Part shown: positions 133-8,535 of the stretch, piece after piece | Position numbering within the stretch: position 1 is the first letter of the stretch | How the letters are laid out: each line of letters starts with the position of its first letter | Origin: Candidatus Poribacteria bacterium | GTDB lineage: Bacteria > Poribacteria > DTPJ01 > WJIO01 | Assembly: GCA_014730235.1 (NCBI GenBank) | Contig: WJIO01000137.1 | Location: forward strand, 1 to 8,535 | DNA: 8,535 nucleotides | Direction of reading: 5' to 3' | Notes under the pieces: model-generated | The model's database searches: none | Seen by the model: the letters and a program-made list of their open reading frames with translations, nothing else | Told to the model about the DNA's origin: nothing | Made by a program: the position numbers and the translations under genes

Positions 133-137
133 TAAAT

Positions 138-144
138 GGAGGTG
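138..144 (+). promoter_or_regulatory. Ribosome binding site that fixes the arsR start at TTG 151
   Basis: GGAGGTG lies 6 nt before the TTG at 151. An in-frame ATG at 136 overlaps this Shine-Dalgarno sequence and has no ribosome binding site of its own, so the ATG is very unlikely to be the start. Confidence 0.85.
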
Positions 145-150
145 TTATTA

Positions 151-510
151 TTGCGTGAGTTATTGAATGTATTTAAGGCTTTATCTGATGAAACTCGTAT
201 AAGACTGTTGAAACTGTTACAACGGCGTGAGTTATGCGTATGTGAAATAATGCAGGCTCTGGATATGACCCAGTCCAGAGTTTCCCGGAACTTGGGTATA
301 CTTAAAAAAGCCGGCCTTGTTAAAGACCGGAGAGATGGTCTGTGGGTCCATTATTCTTTAGACCATGAATCTTTTAATTCTTATGCCACACCTTTGCTAT
401 CGCTCTTGAAGGATTGGATAAATGATGATGATACGATTATTAAAGATATAGAAAAACTGAGCGAAGCTGTTAAATTGAGCGAAGAAAAAGAGATATGCAA
501 AACAGGTTAA
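151..510 (+). CDS. arsR: ArsR/SmtB-family arsenic-responsive repressor
   Basis: Winged-helix repressor of 119 residues, expected to bind DNA as a dimer and to leave it on binding As(III)/Sb(III). The start is the TTG at 151, set by GGAGGTG 6 nt upstream. Residues 6-25 (NVFKALSDETRIRLLKLLQR) match the family N-terminus; the recognition helix region is about 40-57 (TQSRVSRNLGILKKAGLV), followed by the wing (KDRRDGLWVHYSL). The metal-binding helix reads ELCVCEIMQAL, giving Cys29 and Cys31 as in classical ArsR. The third cysteine of the E. coli-type site (CVCxxC) is replaced by Met34, and a lone Cys116 sits near the C-terminus. First gene of the operon; it probably represses itself through the dyad at 111-132. 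Arsenic specificity rests on the CVC motif and on the neighbours, acr3 and arsC. Confidence 0.93.
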   Translation: MRELLNVFKALSDETRIRLLKLLQRRELCVCEIMQALDMTQSRVSRNLGILKKAGLVKDRRDGLWVHYSLDHESFNSYATPLLSLLKDWINDDDTIIKDIEKLSEAVKLSEEKEICKTG

Positions 511-521
511 TCTCTTTTTTT
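485..521 (+). terminator. Possible weak terminator/attenuator hairpin overlapping the arsR stop
   Basis: A perfect 10-bp inverted repeat (AAAAAGAGAT at 485-494, ATCTCTTTTT at 510-519) encloses a 15-nt loop, and the right arm runs into a stretch of seven T (515-521). The stem is AU-rich with only two G-C pairs, so termination would be partial at best. It overlaps the last codons of arsR and would lower transcription of the efflux genes relative to arsR. Geometry is seen; function is inferred. Confidence 0.4.
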
Positions 522-524
522 AAA

Positions 525-552
525 CAATACATTCGCATATGCGAATGTATTG
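525..552. promoter_or_regulatory. Putative second ArsR operator O2 (perfect 28-bp palindrome)
   Basis: Perfect palindrome with arms CAATACATTCGCAT / ATGCGAATGTATTG, centred at 538/539, in the 65-nt gap between arsR and the permease. Its core ATTCGCATATGCGAAT shares ATATGCGAAT with the promoter dyad at 111-132, so both are likely bound by the same ArsR, with this copy the stronger site. No convincing -35/-10 pair surrounds it; it may act as a roadblock, a DNA-looping partner of O1, or the operator of a promoter I cannot recognise. As RNA it could form a hairpin of about 12 bp, but no T-run follows it. Confidence 0.7.
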
Positions 553-575
553 ATACGTTTATTAGAGGAATTGAT

Positions 576-1751
576 ATGCGATCTGAATGGAAAAAAGCAT
601 TATTATTTATTGCTGTGTTTTTGGCAGCTTATTATATTCCTTTCCAGAATCCCAGAATAAAACAGGCAATACTAAGCGCTTTTGTTATGCTCCAGGATTA
701 CGCCCAAAAGCATGTGTTATTTTGCCTGATACCCGCCTTCTTTATTGCCGGTGGAATATCTGTATTTGTTAGCCAGGTATCAGTTATGAAATACTTCGGC
801 GTACAAGCCAATAAGATATTGTCATACAGCGTTGCCTCTGTTTCAGGAGCAATTCTTGCCGTTTGTTCATGCACTATCCTTCCACTTTTCGCCGGAATAT
901 ACAAGCGTGGTGCCGGAATTGGCCCTGCCACCGCTTTTTTGTATTCAGGGCCTGCAATTAATATATTGGCAATAATCCTTACAGCCCGGGTGTTAGGTTG
1001 GCAGCTTGGTCTTGCCCGTGTTTTGGGTGCTGTTATATTTGCTGTCATAATCGGTCTTTTGATGTCTTTATTTTTTCGTAAGGAAGAATCAGAAAAATCC
1101 GCTGCGATTATATCTGAAACAGGGGAATCTGAAAGGCCTTTATGGAAAACAGGATTATATTTTTTATCAATGATAATGCTTCTCATATTTGCCGCCTGGA
1201 GCAAGCCCAAAGAACCGGTGGGCTTTTGGGATTTAATATATGATATACATTGGCATTTGGCCGGAGGATTTCTTATATTGCTGATTTTGATGCTTGTTTA
1301 CTGGTTCAGGAAGGATGAAATTAAAGAATGGACGTTATCCACATGGGAATTTGCAAAGATGATTTTGCCATTATTGTTTGTTGGTGTTTTGGTAGCTGGT
1401 GCTCTTATGGGAATTCCTGGCAGTAATTCCGGTTTAATACCATCCAGATATATAACTTCTATAGTCGGTGGCAATTCTCTTTTTGCCAACGCTTTTGCGG
1501 CTGTGGTGGGTGCGTTTATGTATTTTGCTACCCTGACAGAAGTTCCTATTTTACAGGCGCTTATGGGAAGCGGTATGGGTAATGGTCCTGCTCTGGCTTT
1601 ACTGCTTGCCGGGCCAGCTTTGAGTTTACCAAACATGATCGTCATACGCAGCGTCATGGGAACGAAAAAAACTTTAGTATTTGTCGCTCTGGTTGTGGTA
1701 ATGGCAACAATTTCAGGTATGATTTTTGGATTAATAATGAAAGGTGTATAA
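576..1751 (+). CDS. ArsP_1/DUF318 (UPF0718) family membrane permease
   Basis: Integral membrane protein of 391 residues with about eight to ten hydrophobic segments. The family has internal two-fold repeats, visible here as CSCTILPLFAGIYKRGAGIG...SGPAINI (97-130) and TEVPILQALM...GMGNGPALALLLAGPALSLP (321-352). A charged cytoplasmic loop lies at about 168-190. Characterised family members (ArsP) export trivalent organoarsenicals such as methylarsenite; others are linked to Cu/Zn efflux, so the substrate is not certain. Cys97 and Cys99 in the conserved CSC motif are candidate metalloid ligands. The ATG at 576 is chosen because AGAGGA (564-569) lies 6 nt upstream. An in-frame ATG at 495 would add 27 residues encoded across the arsR end and the palindrome, and has no ribosome binding site. 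The stop is 2 nt from the next gene, implying translational coupling. Confidence 0.9.
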   Translation: MRSEWKKALLFIAVFLAAYYIPFQNPRIKQAILSAFVMLQDYAQKHVLFCLIPAFFIAGGISVFVSQVSVMKYFGVQANKILSYSVASVSGAILAVCSCTILPLFAGIYKRGAGIGPATAFLYSGPAINILAIILTARVLGWQLGLARVLGAVIFAVIIGLLMSLFFRKEESEKSAAIISETGESERPLWKTGLYFLSMIMLLIFAAWSKPKEPVGFWDLIYDIHWHLAGGFLILLILMLVYWFRKDEIKEWTLSTWEFAKMILPLLFVGVLVAGALMGIPGSNSGLIPSRYITSIVGGNSLFANAFAAVVGAFMYFATLTEVPILQALMGSGMGNGPALALLLAGPALSLPNMIVIRSVMGTKKTLVFVALVVVMATISGMIFGLIMKGV

Positions 1752-1753
1752 TA

Positions 1754-1993
1754 ATGAAAATACAGGTATTGGGTACAGGATGTCCAAAATGCAAAAAGGT
1801 TTTTAAAAATGCAGAGAAAGCTGTAGAAATATCAGGTAGCAATGCAGAGATAGTAAAGGTCGAAGATGTCAATAAAATCATGGATTATGGTGTTATGATT
1901 ACACCAGCTTTGGCAATTGAAGGTGATGTAAAAATATCTGGAAAAGTGCCATCACCAGAGCAGATTGCCGGCTGGATAAATGAAAAAAGTTAA
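1754..1993 (+). CDS. Small thioredoxin-like redox protein (Thioredoxin_3 / MTH895-type)
   Basis: Cytoplasmic protein of 79 residues with the compact thioredoxin fold of the MTH895/TM0996 group. The active-site CPKC is at residues 10-13 (LGTGCPKCKK) and the probable cis-proline at 51 (MITPALAI). It starts 2 nt after the permease stop, with AAGGTG (1741-1746) at 7 nt. In many bacteria and archaea such proteins are encoded next to DUF318 permeases and ArsR regulators, which suggests a shared task. Here it also sits two genes before a thioredoxin-coupled arsenate reductase. Plausible roles are reductant for ArsC, thiol carrier handing As(III) to a permease, or redox partner of the permease cysteines. 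The fold call is firm; the role is inferred. Confidence 0.9.
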   Translation: MKIQVLGTGCPKCKKVFKNAEKAVEISGSNAEIVKVEDVNKIMDYGVMITPALAIEGDVKISGKVPSPEQIAGWINEKS

Positions 1994-1999
1994 CATGCC

Positions 2000-3088
2000 A
2001 TGAAAACAGATATAAAAACAAAGAAACTAAGCGTATTTGAAAAATATCTAACTCTCTGGGTATTTTTGTGTATCGTGGCAGGAATTATACTGGGAAGGTT
2101 ATTTCCGGATATAGCTCTGGTTCTTGATAGTTTATCGGTAAAGCAGGTTTCCATTCCCATAGCTATATGCCTGTTTTTTATGATGTATCCCATCATGGTA
2201 AAGATAGATTTTGCTGAAGTTGTAAAGGCAGGAAAAACTCCCAGACCTGTGATATTAACCCTTGTAGCTAACTGGCTTATAAAGCCATTTACTATGGTTG
2301 GAATAGCTACTCTTTTTCTGGGCGTTTTGTTTAAAGGATGGATACCGGGTATTGATGCAGGCATCAAATATGCCGGTGAAGTTCCGCTTTCTCGTTCATA
2401 TATATCTGGCACTATATTACTGGGTATTGCACCATGTACTGCTATGGTGCTGATGTGGAGTTATCTTGCTCGCGGGAATGACGGTCATACCCTGGTAATG
2501 GTGGCGATTAATTCCCTGACCATGCTTTTTCTTTATGCGCCTTTGGGTGGTTTTCTGCTTGGCGTCAACAGTATGCCTATTCCCTGGCAGACTATAATTT
2601 TATCGGTGAGTTTTTATGTTGCACTTCCACTATTAGCCGGTTATTTTTCCAGAAGGCAGATAATAAAGTCAAAGGGAGAAGATTGGTTTAAAGAGAAATT
2701 TATACAACGACTGACAGCAGTTTCTATTATCGCACTTTTGATTACGCTGGTTGTGTTGTTTGCCCTCAAGGGTGAAGTTATACTGAAACAGCCACAGGCC
2801 ATTTTTCTTATAGCAATTCCATTATTTATCCAGACGAACCTTATTTTTTGGATTACTTATGGCCTTGCAAAACTTATCAGACTAAAGTATGAAGACGCTG
2901 CCCCATCGGCTATGATCGGAGCGTCCAATCACTTTGAGGTGGCTATAGCCACTGCAACTATGCTTTTTGGATTGGGTTCTGGCGCTGCTCTTGCGACCGT
3001 AGTTGGGGTATTAATCGAGGTTCCGGTAATGCTTATGTTAGTTAAGATATGCCTGAGAACAAGGCATTGGTTTAACGGTAAAAGCTGA
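2000..3088 (+). CDS. acr3: ACR3-family arsenite efflux permease
   Basis: Membrane transporter of 362 residues, the usual ACR3 length, with about ten transmembrane segments; it exports As(OH)3 using the proton motive force. Family signatures are clear: [20 protein letters not shown] (137-156) with the essential cysteine at 146, and a C-terminal block [11 protein letters not shown]...[22 protein letters not shown] (307-348) with the conserved Glu313. It starts 6 nt after the thioredoxin-like gene. No good Shine-Dalgarno precedes the ATG at 2000 (the upstream sequence is mainly A-rich), so translation probably depends on coupling to the preceding gene. A nearby ATG at 1995 hits a stop after two codons. 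The product could also be named ArsB, but it belongs to the ACR3 family and not to the E. coli ArsB family. Confidence 0.95.
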
Positions 3089-3103
3089 AAGGAAATAAAT
3101 TTA

Positions 3104-3580
3104 ATGAAAAAAGCAAAAGTTTTATTTATATGCACAGGTAATTCGGCAAGAAGCCAGATGTCTGAAGGTTTGCTTCGTAAAATGGCCGGAGATATAACAG
3201 ATGTTTACAGCGCGGGAACTAAGCCTTCTGAAAAAGTCAATCCGTTTGCTTTGAAGATGCTTTCCGATAGCGGCATTGATACATCCGGTCATTACACAAA
3301 GAGTGTAACAGAATTTTTGGATAAAGAGTTTGATATAATCATTACAGTTTGTGACAATGCGCGCCAGAACTGCCCTGTTTTTCCCGGTAAAGCTGTAAAA
3401 TATCACTGGAATCTGGAAGATCCTGCATCTGTGGAAGGAACTGAGGAAGAAAAGCTGGAGGTATTTCGTAACACCTTTGCTGATATTTCAAAGAGGGTTT
3501 CGGAATTGATAGATATGATAAAGAATATGCCGAAAAAGAAGGAAAAATCAGGCGAAAAAGATTTGGGGATAAATCTATAA
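3104..3580 (+). CDS. arsC: Arsenate reductase, thioredoxin-coupled (low-molecular-weight phosphatase fold)
   Basis: Cytoplasmic enzyme of 158 residues that reduces arsenate to arsenite for export by ACR3. The P-loop CTGNSARS starts at the nucleophile Cys10. The redox pair Cys83 and Cys90 lies in VCDNARQNCPVFPG, and the general acid Asp106 in HWNLEDPA. These match the Cys10-Cys82-Cys89 relay of Staphylococcus aureus/Bacillus ArsC, so the disulfide is expected to be resolved by thioredoxin, possibly the CPKC protein encoded upstream. The body is of normal length with a lysine-rich tail (about residues 144-154). AAAGGA (3088-3093) lies 10 nt before the ATG, and the gap from acr3 is 15 nt. Last gene of the operon; its stop codon touches the terminator stem. 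Confidence 0.96.
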   Translation: MKKAKVLFICTGNSARSQMSEGLLRKMAGDITDVYSAGTKPSEKVNPFALKMLSDSGIDTSGHYTKSVTEFLDKEFDIIITVCDNARQNCPVFPGKAVKYHWNLEDPASVEGTEEEKLEVFRNTFADISKRVSELIDMIKNMPKKKEKSGEKDLGINL

Positions 3581-3618
3581 ACAAAACCCCTCCGATTTTA
3601 ATCGGAGGGGTTTTGTTT
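3579..3618. terminator. Bidirectional intrinsic terminator between convergent operons
   Basis: Perfect 18-bp stem (3579-3596 and 3601-3618) with a TTTA loop; the GC-rich core CCCCTCCGAT/ATCGGAGGGG is flanked by an A-rich left arm and a T-rich right arm. Read from either strand it gives a hairpin ending in a T-rich tract, so it can end both the ars operon (the arsC stop is at 3578-3580) and the - strand secreted-protein operon, whose stop is at 3631-3633. Confidence 0.92.
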
Positions 3619-3630
3619 AAGTTTACATGA

Positions 3631-4416
3631 CTATTTAACTTTGATTTCGCCCCAGGAAGCGGTCAATTTACCACTGGATTCAACAGGAGTAAAGGCATCA
3701 TACCATGTGGCCATGATATTTTCCATAAGTTTTCCTGCCATTTCCTTGGTGTTATCGTCGTTTCCTGCAACATGATATTTATCAGGTGCGAGGCACATCA
3801 TGACAAACATACCGTTGCCATACTCGGCTTCCATTATAATTGGTTTGTTTGTGCCTGTTTCCACCATCAATACATCAAAACCATCCTGGGCAGTAATTAC
3901 TTCCCAACCTGTGGGCCAGCCTTGATGGCCCCATCCGGAAAATTCGTCTTCAGTGAATTTATGTGGTTCATTAAAGACCGGATGTTCTGGTTCTTCGATA
4001 GTAAATACCGAGGGATCGGGATCGCTTCGGACACAAAGCAGGCCGTCGGGCAGCCAATCTACGTTGGCTTCATTCTGGTCTGCCTGGGTCGGTTCGATTA
4101 CAATACCACCACCATCTACAAAATCATGAATTGCGGCTGCGTTGTTATCAACAGACTGATGTAGAGCTGCATTGTTGGTATACATGGCCGACATAAACAG
4201 AAGTCTGTATCCGTCCAGATCCATGTTTCCACCCTCAACATCATCTGTTATGTCATCATAATCATAACCATATTCATCCAGAGACTGGGTTAAACCTCTG
4301 ACCTGTGTCCACTGGTCAGCGAAATCAATAACGGCTATGTCGGCAGCTTTAGCCACAGGCATTATAGCTACCAGCAAAAACAGCGCGAAAAGCGGAGAAC
4401 AAATTTTCCTAAACAT
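3631..4416 (-). CDS. Secreted protein with a GATase1/ThuA-like fold and a C-terminal WGEIK tail
   Basis: Protein of 261 residues, function not recognised. A signal peptide covers residues 1 to about 24-25 (positive MFRK, hydrophobic stretch, cleavage near VAKAA). The mature part begins ADIAVIDFADQW, with alternating strands and glycines (YRLLFMSAMY, FVDGGGIVIEP, GNGMFVMMCLAPDKY) typical of the class-I glutamine-amidotransferase-like or ThuA-like fold. I cannot find the Cys-His-Glu triad of active amidotransferases; Cys128 and Cys208 are not in a nucleophile-elbow context. It is strongly acidic. The end, PVESSGKLTASWGEIKVK, matches the end of the upstream partner gene. A strong ribosome site (AAGGAGGT, complement of 4423-4430) lies 6 nt before the ATG. 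The gap to the upstream gene is 17 nt, so the two are co-transcribed. It may be a sugar- or ligand-binding extracellular protein; confidence in the fold is moderate. Confidence 0.8.
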   Translation of the reverse strand: MFRKICSPLFALFLLVAIMPVAKAADIAVIDFADQWTQVRGLTQSLDEYGYDYDDITDDVEGGNMDLDGYRLLFMSAMYTNNAALHQSVDNNAAAIHDFVDGGGIVIEPTQADQNEANVDWLPDGLLCVRSDPDPSVFTIEEPEHPVFNEPHKFTEDEFSGWGHQGWPTGWEVITAQDGFDVLMVETGTNKPIIMEAEYGNGMFVMMCLAPDKYHVAGNDDNTKEMAGKLMENIMATWYDAFTPVESSGKLTASWGEIKVK

Positions 4417-4433
4417 GATCTTACCTCCTTGTG

Positions 4434-5177
4434 TTACTTCAATTCACCCCAAGTTGTTGCTATTTTATTCATTGGGCTGACTGGCGAAGTAGAAATTTCA
4501 GTTACACTTACGTTGTCAAAAGCTACACCCGGGTTCATCCCCCAGGCTGAAAGGGCTACGCTGCCTGAAGGAATACTAGAGTCCATAACGTCAAACAGCA
4601 TACGGTCATCCAGGCTGACCTTTATATTTTCACCCAGTATCTCAACTTTTATATGATGCCAGATGCCATTGTCTTTTTCATACATGGTTTCCATAACTTT
4701 ACCGAGTTCAGTATATTGACCGTCAACGCAAACTCGCAAACGACCAAAGCGACCATCAGTTCGACTATCTTGTCCGTTCATGTCAAATACATAGAAATTA
4801 TTTTCATCTACATATCTAAATAACACACCAGGTATGTCATCGTCAAGGGCATACATGTCAACTTCAAAAATGGAGTTGTCCCAGTTACCACCGTTGTAAT
4901 ATATCCATGAGCCTCTGGAAGGTGAGTCACTTCCGGCGTCGCCACCGTAAATGTTAGAATTTTCCAGAATGGCGATCTGGCCATCAACTTCAGTTATATG
5001 CCAGTTGGATGGGCCTGAATTGGCGCCGGGTTCGTCGTAAATGTTCCATTCCCTGATACCTGTTTCTCCAGCACCAAGGAGTGCATCAAAATCTTCTGTC
5101 AAATTTGCCGCTGTTCCAATAGATGCTAAGAATAAGCTGGCAAAGACAACTGTAATAGCTGATTTCAGTAACCTCAT
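4434..5177 (-). CDS. Secreted jelly-roll (laminin-G/DUF1080-like) protein with a C-terminal WGELK tail
   Basis: Protein of 247 residues with a signal peptide (MRLLKSAITVVFASLFLASI, cleavage near GTAA at 21-24). The mature part reads as a single concanavalin-A-like beta-sandwich: a WHITEVDGQIAILE strand, SWIYYNG, FEVDMYALDDDIPGVLFRY, NNFYVFDMN, GIWHHIKVEILGENIKVSLD and a closing GVAFDNVSVTEI. This pattern (GVxFRYxDxNNFYxF ... WHxxKVxxxGxxIxVxxD ... FDNVxV) is common in DUF1080, LamG and GH-linked domains that bind or cleave sugars; no catalytic residues can be assigned. It ends PVSPMNKIATTWGELK, a tail shared with the downstream gene. First gene of the - strand pair; a ribosome site AAAGGG precedes the ATG. 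Likely exported and acting on or anchored near the cell surface. Confidence 0.82.
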   Translation of the reverse strand: MRLLKSAITVVFASLFLASIGTAANLTEDFDALLGAGETGIREWNIYDEPGANSGPSNWHITEVDGQIAILENSNIYGGDAGSDSPSRGSWIYYNGGNWDNSIFEVDMYALDDDIPGVLFRYVDENNFYVFDMNGQDSRTDGRFGRLRVCVDGQYTELGKVMETMYEKDNGIWHHIKVEILGENIKVSLDDRMLFDVMDSSIPSGSVALSAWGMNPGVAFDNVSVTEISTSPVSPMNKIATTWGELK

Positions 5178-5662: not shown

Positions 5663-7744
5663 ATGAAAGAATATAGACCTAATCAGATCAGAAATATAGG
5701 AATCTTTTCTCATGCGCGGGCAGGAAAAACATCTCTGACAGAAGCCCTCCTGTATGATTCTGGTGCCATTTCAAAATTGGGAAGATCTGATGATGGTAAT
5801 ACAGTATCTGACTATGATGAAGACGAAATTCGAAGAAATACCAGTATAAATACTGCCCTGTGTATCTGTGAATGGAAAGATTGTAAGATCAACCTGATTG
5901 ACACCCCCGGATACAGCGACTTTGCAGGTGAACAGGAAGCAGCCGCCAGAGTATCAGACAATATCTTGATCGTTACTGATGCAAGCATGGGACTGGAAGC
6001 TGGAGCTGAAAAAGCCTGGGAAAGAGCAGAAAAATACGATATACCAAGAGCAATATTCCTTAATAAAATTGACAAGGAAATGGCAAAATTTGATGAAACT
6101 TTACAGGCTCTGGAGGTACTGGGAGGAAGAATTGTTCCTGTAAGTATTCCTATAGGGGTTGGACTGAATTTCAAGGGGATTATTGATCTGGTTAAGATGA
6201 AAGCCTATGTAAAAGGTGATAATGATAAAAAACTTCAGGAAATCGATATACCTGAAGATATGCAGGATCAGATAGATGAACATAGAGAAACTTTAATAGA
6301 TGCTGTAGCTGAGGCTGATGATGAACTCCTGGAGAAATACCTGGGCGGCGAAGAGCTAACAGATGAAGAAATAAAAATAGGGCTTAAAAAAGGTATTTCT
6401 GATAACATGTTTGTACCTTTGACCTGCGGATCAGCCTATGAAAATATAGGTCCTCAGATGCTTCTGGACCTTCTGGTCAGTTTTGCTTCACCAGTTGATG
6501 CAAAACCGGTAAAGGCAACTAAGCCGGGAAGCGAAGAAGAAGAAGTAGAAATTGAAATTAAAGAGGATGGCCCACTTTGTGCTTTTGTATTTAAAACTAT
6601 GTCAGACCCATACGCCGGTAAAGTCAGCTATTTTAAAGTTTACTCAGGCATTTTCAAATCTGACTCCAGGGTAATAAATGTAAACAAAAATACAGAAGAG
6701 CGAATCGGTACCTTGTCTCTTGTCAGCGGTAAGAAATTCACAAACGTGGATAAAATCGTAGCCGGTGATTTTGGCATGGTAACAAAATTGAGCGAAACAG
6801 ACACTAACGATACCCTCTGTGACGAAGAAAATGAGCTGTTGCTTCCACCTATAGATTTCCCGAAACCTGTTATTTCTATGGCAATCACACCCAAAACTCA
6901 GGGTGATGATGAAAAACTAAGCACCATGCTCACAAGAATGACAGAAGAAGACCCTACGTTTATACTGCGAAGAGATAATGAAACTAAAGAAACGATAATA
7001 TCCGGTATGGGGGAACTGCATATTAACGTTATTCTTGATAGAATAAAGAATCGCTATAACGTAGAAGCAGAAACTCGAGTACCAAAGGTACCTTATAGAG
7101 AGACAATCAGAGGTAAATCCGAACAGCAGGGAAGATATAAAAAGCAAACTGGTGGTCGGGGACAGTATGGCGACGCATGGATCAGGATGGAACCTAACGA
7201 ACGTGGAGCCGGTTTTGAATTTATTGACGCCATTGTTGGTGGTGCAATACCAAGGCAATATATACCGGCTGTAGAAAAGGGTTTAATCGAATCTATGGAG
7301 GAAGGTATACTTGCTGGCTCCCAGGTTGTTGATATGAAAATAACCCTCTATGACGGTGGTTTTCATCCTGTGGATTCATCGGAAATGGCCTTCAAGATCG
7401 CAGCTTCTATGGCCTTTAAGAAAGCAATGGAAGCAGCCCAACCCTTCATCATGGAACCTATTATGGAAGTTGAAATTACCGTTCCTGATGAATACATGGG
7501 TGATGTAATGAGCGACCTTAACAGCCGTAGAGGAAGAATTTTGGGCATGAATCCAAGTGATGGAAAACAAATAATCAAAGCAAACGTACCCATGGCTGAG
7601 ATGTTCAGATATTCGGTTGATTTAAGGTCAATAACCAGCGATAGAGGTTCATTTACTATGGAATTCTCACACTATGAAGAAGTGCCTTTTGACATCAGCG
7701 AGAAGATAGTAGCTGAATACCAGGCTTCTCAGGAGTCTTCCTGA
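5663..7744 (+). CDS. fusA: Elongation factor G-like translational GTPase (EF-G-2 type)
   Basis: Full-length protein of 693 residues with the five-domain layout of EF-G, which drives ribosomal translocation or, in some paralogues, ribosome recycling. GTPase motifs: G1 SHARAGKT (16-23), switch-I region RRNTSIN (57-63), G3 DTPG (80-83), G4 NKID (134-137), G5 TCGSA (254-258). An acidic stretch (EEEEVEIEIKED) joins the G domain to domain II. Domain III includes ITPKTQGDDEKLSTML and GMGELHINVI; domain IV includes TGGRGQYGDAW; domain V includes the PIMEVEITVPDEYMGDVMSD and RRGRILGM blocks. G1 and switch I differ from housekeeping EF-G (AHIDAGKTTT, RGITI) and match the EF-G-like group in which paralogues labelled fusA2 occur, so a second, canonical EF-G probably exists elsewhere. 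AAGGAG (5648-5653) lies 9 nt before the ATG. No ribosomal genes (rpsL, rpsG, tuf) flank it, again unlike classical fusA. Monocistronic by its own promoter and terminator. Confidence 0.93.
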   Translation: MKEYRPNQIRNIGIFSHARAGKTSLTEALLYDSGAISKLGRSDDGNTVSDYDEDEIRRNTSINTALCICEWKDCKINLIDTPGYSDFAGEQEAAARVSDNILIVTDASMGLEAGAEKAWERAEKYDIPRAIFLNKIDKEMAKFDETLQALEVLGGRIVPVSIPIGVGLNFKGIIDLVKMKAYVKGDNDKKLQEIDIPEDMQDQIDEHRETLIDAVAEADDELLEKYLGGEELTDEEIKIGLKKGISDNMFVPLTCGSAYENIGPQMLLDLLVSFASPVDAKPVKATKPGSEEEEVEIEIKEDGPLCAFVFKTMSDPYAGKVSYFKVYSGIFKSDSRVINVNKNTEERIGTLSLVSGKKFTNVDKIVAGDFGMVTKLSETDTNDTLCDEENELLLPPIDFPKPVISMAITPKTQGDDEKLSTMLTRMTEEDPTFILRRDNETKETIISGMGELHINVILDRIKNRYNVEAETRVPKVPYRETIRGKSEQQGRYKKQTGGRGQYGDAWIRMEPNERGAGFEFIDAIVGGAIPRQYIPAVEKGLIESMEEGILAGSQVVDMKITLYDGGFHPVDSSEMAFKIAASMAFKKAMEAAQPFIMEPIMEVEITVPDEYMGDVMSDLNSRRGRILGMNPSDGKQIIKANVPMAEMFRYSVDLRSITSDRGSFTMEFSHYEEVPFDISEKIVAEYQASQESS

Positions 7745-7816: not shown

Positions 7817-8535
7817 GTGAAAATAATTACTTCAACTTCGGAAATTCAAAAGTATTGCATGGAAAAGCGTGTTGAAGGTAAAACCATAGGCATTGTGCCT
7901 ACTATGGGATTTTTCCACGAAGGACACTTAAGCCTGATGCGTCAGGCCCGGGAAGAAAATGATGTCGTTGTCACCAGCATCTTTGTGAACCCCACACAAT
8001 TTGGCCCCAGCGAAGATTACGAGGCATATCCAAGAGACCTGGAACGAGATTCAGAAATGGCCAGGAAGATAGGGGTTGATGTTATATTTTCCCCCCAGGT
8101 AAAAGACATGTATCCCACCGGATATGCCACGTTTGTAAATGTAGAGGGTATTACGGATAAAATGTGCGGTGCATCCCGTCCAACTCACTTTCGAGGCGTG
8201 ACAACGGTAGTTACCAAGCTTTTCAATCTGATGATACCCCAAAGGGCTTATTTCGGTCAAAAGGACGCGCAGCAGTCTATAGTAATAAAACGCATGAACC
8301 AGGATCTAAATTTTGGTATTGATATTGTCGTATTGCCCATCGTTCGGGAAGCTGATGGTCTCGCCATGAGTTCCAGAAACAAATACCTCAGCGAGGATGA
8401 GCGTAAAGCTGCCCTTCAACTAAACAAATCCCTGTTAAAAGCTAAAGAATTGATACAGTCCGGCGAACACAACCCGCAAAAGGTGCATGATAAAATCAAA
8501 TCTATGCTGGAACCTGAACCTCTTCTGCGCATTGA
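7817..8535 (+). CDS. panC: Pantothenate synthetase (pantoate--beta-alanine ligase), 3' end outside the window
   Basis: ATP-dependent ligase that joins pantoate and beta-alanine through a pantoyl-adenylate, the last step of vitamin B5 synthesis before coenzyme A; cytoplasmic. 239 codons are present from a GTG start, against a usual length of about 280, so roughly the last 40 residues are cut off by the window edge. Motifs in order: PTMGFFHEGHLSL with the HIGH-type HEGH at 34-37, IFVNPTQFGPSEDYEAYPRD (55-74), HFRGVTTVVTKLFN (124-137), YFGQKDAQQ (145-153), and READGLAMSSRNKYL with the KMSKS-like MSSRN (184-188). AAAGGTG (7804-7810) lies 6 nt before the GTG, which settles the start. No panB or panD is visible; they may follow outside the window. 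Reading frame open to the last base. Confidence 0.96.
   Translation, partial: MKIITSTSEIQKYCMEKRVEGKTIGIVPTMGFFHEGHLSLMRQAREENDVVVTSIFVNPTQFGPSEDYEAYPRDLERDSEMARKIGVDVIFSPQVKDMYPTGYATFVNVEGITDKMCGASRPTHFRGVTTVVTKLFNLMIPQRAYFGQKDAQQSIVIKRMNQDLNFGIDIVVLPIVREADGLAMSSRNKYLSEDERKAALQLNKSLLKAKELIQSGEHNPQKVHDKIKSMLEPEPLLRI

Follow-up and report, generated by a model that had tools for sequence, protein, structure and literature searches.

A short tryptophan-containing C-terminal tail on Sec-exported proteins of Poribacteria, a candidate minimal T9SS sorting signal

RESULTS

Two adjacent genes encode secreted proteins with a common C-terminal tail

The window, that is, the whole 8,535-nucleotide stretch analysed, contains a pair of real, co-directional ORFs on the minus strand, separated by a 17-bp gap, and an obvious signal peptide opens each product. 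The first gene (4434-5177, minus strand) encodes a secreted protein of 247 aa, whose signal peptide, MRLLKSAITVVFASLFLASIGTA (5109-5177), was recognised by eye from its basic n-region and hydrophobic h-region. Its passenger is a beta-sandwich of the 3-keto-disaccharide-hydrolase/CBM66-like type: it matched PF06439 in Pfam (E=5e-10) and the CBM66 of levanase in a PDB profile search (E=2e-16), and CBM66 was the best Foldseek match. In the AlphaFold model, the fold stopped near residue 227, and residues 233-247, which form the tail, lay outside the folded domain with pLDDT <50. The second gene (3631-4416, minus strand) encodes a secreted protein of 261 aa, with MFRKICSPLFALFLLVAIMPVAKA (4345-4416) as its signal peptide. 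It matched no Pfam family above cut-off. Relatives were found within the host genome and in other Poribacteria, and the passenger is possibly of an alpha/beta (ThuA/GATase-like) type.

The first protein ends in PVSPMNKIATTWGELK (4437-4484, last 16 residues) and the second in PVESSGKLTASWGEIKVK (3634-3687, last 18 residues). The two tails aligned without gaps, as claimed in an earlier note on this DNA, and BLASTP of one protein against the other found them to be the sole similarity. The same note had assigned the proteins to different folds. This held in so far as the first is PF06439/CBM66-like and nothing outside the tail is detectably similar; for the second, the predicted model was weak (pLDDT 43) and no fold was interpreted from it. 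The tail of the first protein contains conserved columns, and in the alignment of the second protein with its relatives, V245, K250, W255, and K259 were invariant.

A perfect inverted repeat with 19-bp arms and a 2-nt spacer (3579-3618) sits between the convergent upstream gene and the tail-protein pair. Read from the DNA letters only and missed by a consensus scan, it is a probable bidirectional terminator that would end the transcript of the pair. Elsewhere in the window, we noticed an arsenic-type operon on the plus strand (136-3580), made up of an ArsR regulator, a PF03773 permease, a thioredoxin-like protein, an SBF/ACR3-like transporter, and an arsenate-reductase-like LMW phosphatase. 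An EF-G-like protein of 693 aa is encoded at 5663-7744, and the ORF at 7817-8533, which leaves the contig at its end, resembles pantoate-beta-alanine ligase (panC) by sequence appearance only.

The tail recurs at the ends of exported proteins of unrelated types

In the host genome (5.5 Mb, 92% complete), a DNA pattern for WG-x-hydrophobic-K occurred 68 times, versus 11 times for the reversed control. About 58 of the 68 occurrences were ORF ends, nearly all of them 0-3 aa before the stop and a few up to 8 aa, and the same upstream consensus was common to them; the tail is thus by no means confined to the pair in the window. The consensus reads [AP]V[ED]P.[GD]K[LI]..[TS]WG.[IL]K followed by 0-3 residues, for a length of 16-20 residues, and its fuller form in the host genome is [AP]V[ED]P.[GD]K[LI][AT][TV][TS]WG.[IL]K. 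Variants exist, with WA or WS in place of WG or with longer ends. We also scanned 387,842 sequence windows with a PWM from which the W column was omitted, built from training tails that did contain W. It gave 67 scores >10 bits. Of these, 59 fell on C-termini and a further 6 on C-termini that were slightly longer; the other 2 lay immediately before T9SS CTDs, and no other position scored as high. The pattern count and the PWM scan together rule out chance similarity of the tails. ORF calling was crude throughout, and the genomes are mostly MAGs.

A crude signal-peptide test, identical for tail ORFs and other ORFs, was positive for 45 of 51 tail ORFs versus 236 of 841 others (28%, p ~5e-18). 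In five of the six misses, a hydrophobic signal region was visible behind an over-extended start. These figures indicate that tail proteins are, by prediction, Sec-exported. The tail is far from equally frequent on cytoplasmic proteins, and its presence on dozens of unrelated proteins with predicted Sec export supports the suggestion in the earlier note of a C-terminal tag for sorting, secretion, or surface anchoring.

Laminin_G_3 (LamG) was found in 24 of 54 host tail proteins. The others included PF06439, F5/8 type C, kelch, WD40-like, NPCBM, cohesin, TolB-like propeller, and unclassified proteins, together with ThuA-like ones assigned by reading of the sequence, with no family match. Some LamG relatives lacked the tail. 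The tail is therefore modular: it occurs on unrelated folds and, in the one protein modelled, it is an unstructured extension past the folded domain. No tail model was present among the NCBIfam families matched by the 54 proteins, nor among 25 listed of the 37 Pfam families that they matched.

The tail is phylum-wide

A second genome (G058, OX638316.1) yielded 50 tail ORFs in 1.24 Mb, which extrapolates to ~200 per genome, a rough figure since part of that sequence had been selected for its nearness to C25, SprA, or CTD genes. There are perhaps 100-200 tail proteins per poribacterial genome. The tail pattern exceeded its reversed control in each of the 58 poribacterial genomes examined (9 families, 14 genera). 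A GTDB-wide scan with V.....K[LI]..TWG.IK matched at least 113 stretches, and among the matches listed, 79 of 80 titles were Poribacteria. Among these matches, the tail was essentially exclusive to the phylum, in agreement with the earlier note, which had mentioned similar ends in Poribacteria-like genomes. The remaining title was a 3.8-kb contig labelled Deltaproteobacteria, in which the tail closes a 28-aa frame; it may be a misbinned Poribacteria contig with a frameshift.

Poribacteria encode homologues of T9SS components

An earlier single-cell study (2014) noted TIGR04183 sorting domains in Poribacteria and reported Por secretion genes as not found (PMC3909097), and a 2024 paper listed T9SS only for FCB phyla (PMC11285876). 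We found in the host a SprA/Sov homologue of 2297 aa (L221:6643-13536(+)), which matched TIGR04189 at E=9e-54 and 182 bits, below the cut-off of 200. A LysM domain lies at its N-terminus. SprA matches were present in 57 of 58 genomes and covered every sampled genus. Peptidase C25 proteins occurred in every genome tested, and one of the four in the host reached 460 bits, above the cut-off of 420 for PorU. Neither SprA nor C25 gave a match in 14 control genomes. In both the host (L381) and G058 (L199), a PorV-family gene comes immediately after a PorU gene.

PorV-family proteins, a family that passed its curated cut-off, were present in every genome tested. The search covered 12 genomes (G000, G001, G003, G007, G016, G023, G040, G055, G057-G059, and G062, where G000 is the host): 11 of them had 13-30 PorV/PorQ-family matches each, and the remaining one, which is the least complete, had 8. 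These outer-membrane proteins are greatly expanded, and several of their genes adjoin CTD-protein genes, as if they encoded dedicated shuttles for that cargo. Canonical CTDs numbered 5-40 per genome. GldM (TIGR03517) was matched in none of 12 genomes, in a search in which control genomes were silent as well. Because neither SprA nor PorV matched any PDB sequence, both assignments rest on profile models, by which the phylum is predicted to encode SprA, PorU, and many PorV-family proteins.

A tail-like segment adjoins canonical T9SS CTDs

In 91 sequences, a tail-like segment stood directly before a canonical CTD, a number that is no frequency, the loci having been fetched for carrying the junction or as homologues of such proteins. 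The passengers fell into two unrelated groups, WD40-type proteins and ~550-aa repeat proteins that we read as FG-GAP-like. The junction consensus was [AS]V[ED]P.G..[LV]TT[LF]G.[VI]K[RQ]TALLQN[FY]PNPFNPETW. The W position differed between the two settings: at C-terminal tails, with no selection for W, it was W in 67 of 67, whereas in the pre-CTD copies it was L in 66, F in 20, W in 3, and I in 2 (L/F, 86 of 91). The Trp thus accompanies a position at the very end of the protein.

No protein with both an intact terminal tail and a CTD was found, and a tail-for-CTD swap between close orthologues was looked for and not found. In the PWM scan, the segment was missing from other CTD proteins, and most G058 CTD proteins were without it. 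Tail proteins were smaller than CTD proteins (median 274 versus 942 aa); passenger overlap between the two sets was weak and was given no weight as support. Incidentally, four loci of two genomes (L358, L359, L361, and L362; G007 and G029) hold many ~550-aa repeat proteins in tandem arrays, and almost all of these proteins end in the tail-like segment and a T9SS CTD.

DISCUSSION

Two of the results above go beyond the earlier note, namely the likely T9SS machinery and the tail adjoining T9SS sorting domains. Our preferred reading of the tail, to which we give a probability of roughly 0.55, is a minimal, very short (~16-20 residues) C-terminal sorting signal of a poribacterial T9SS. Sec would export the tail protein to the periplasm, where the T9SS would read the tail, Trp included, as a minimal replacement for the ~80-aa CTD. 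The reader would probably be one of the many PorV-family shuttles, possibly a dedicated PorV paralogue. The protein would then leave through SprA, and a PorU-type sortase might cut or anchor it. Export, PorV binding, and cleavage are all steps that we infer for tail proteins. To our knowledge, T9SS is the one Sec-dependent outer-membrane exporter to recognise a C-terminal signal that lacks a membrane helix, and it is for this reason, and in view of the short CTDs of P. intermedia, that a minimal T9SS signal seems the most likely identity of the tail. Those short CTDs, of 43-55 aa, are predicted to bind PorV as the long ones do (PMC11969387), and work on P. gingivalis (PMC3120885) was counted in support as well. 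The fuller statement, that of a phylum-wide ~18-residue Trp-containing signal, previously undescribed in the open-licence literature, borne by ~100-200 proteins per genome and read by T9SS, stands in our view at even odds.

Several observations count against the T9SS reading. The tail has neither CTD motifs B and D (GxY) nor an Ig fold, and it is less than half as long as the described short CTDs. Poribacteria use normal type A CTDs as well, so that a second signal would not be needed in principle. Among the matches listed in the GTDB-wide scan, the tail occurred in no other T9SS phylum. PorV paralogues adjoin CTD genes rather than tail genes, and the tail-like segment with a CTD came from only two large passenger groups. 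Moreover, since T9SS and tail are both phylum-wide, their co-occurrence inside the phylum cannot tell T9SS dependence from shared ancestry.

Some of these same points would suit a pathway specific to Poribacteria and separate from T9SS, for which the tail would be the C-terminal sorting or anchoring signal and which would have its own receptor or processing enzyme: T9SS occurs in several phyla (PMC11285876), as opposed to the tail, whose listed matches were limited to Poribacteria; CTD motifs are missing from the tail; and tail and CTD proteins differ in size and have few passengers in common. Such a pathway is nevertheless unlikely, given that the only internal tail-like segments lie directly before T9SS CTDs, that a PorU-PorV-SprA system extends throughout the phylum, and that we know of no other exporter of the kind described above.

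The position of the pre-CTD segment also bears on another idea, whereby the mature protein retains the tail as a docking peptide at its C-terminus and is tethered by it to a partner on the surface or in the periplasm. In known cargo, PorU cleavage sites lie directly upstream of the CTD (PMC11969387), exactly where the segment is found, and a cut there, just after VKR, would expose it as a new C-terminus. The 0-3 variable residues after the final K and the unstructured tail of the model fit this idea too. However, the end so exposed would differ from the real tails, the invariant terminal W being L or F in the pre-CTD copies, and most G058 CTD proteins lack the segment; a docking peptide seems a little less likely than a separate pathway.

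Finally, that the tail is the inherited last strand of an expanded LamG/jelly-roll family and no sorting module is very improbable, despite the share of Laminin_G_3 among the host tail proteins: inheritance within a single family is ruled out by the spread of the tail over kelch, WD40-like, F5/8C, cohesin, ThuA-like, and unclassified proteins, and, in addition, some LamG relatives do without it, it is disordered in the model, and a similar segment precedes CTDs.

On sequence evidence, the tail points out the proteins that are probably secreted or surface-borne in a dominant phylum of uncultured sponge symbionts. The SprA, PorU, and PorV homologues would supply the secretion machinery that had been lacking for the CTD proteins described in 2014 (PMC3909097) and extend T9SS components beyond the phyla of the 2024 paper (PMC11285876). 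If the T9SS reading is true, we know of no smaller natural T9SS signal, and the tail would add a second class of signal to the normal CTDs and show how little of a CTD a T9SS may need for cargo recognition.

Compared with known C-terminal signals, the tail resembles PEP-CTERM/exosortase and LPXTG/sortase signals in being a short C-terminal homology on many secreted, often lectin-like proteins. Unlike them, it lacks a hydrophobic stretch that could span a membrane and a basic end, as the earlier note had observed for the pair, and it also has no PEP or LPXTG motif; both identities are ruled out on this architecture. The short CTDs of P. intermedia are similar in that shortened C-terminal signals stand beside long ones in one organism. 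They carry motifs B, D (GxY/GxN), and E and a cleavage site (PMC11969387), whereas in the consensus of 275 tails motifs B, D, and E are not recognisable. By the definitions of all these classes, and of the T9SS type A domain (TIGR04183, PF18962), the tail falls outside them: it has 16-20 residues instead of ~70-100, neither Ig-like fold nor GxY, and an invariant Trp, and it matches neither type A model, nor any other curated one in NCBIfam (54 tail proteins) or among the 25 listed Pfam families. Yet it shares with the type A domain a C-terminal place on proteins with Sec signal peptides and of unrelated folds, in genomes that also hold homologues of SprA (182 of 200 bits in the host), PorU, and PorV. 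In two families, the link is a physical one, a tail-like segment being fused directly to such a domain.
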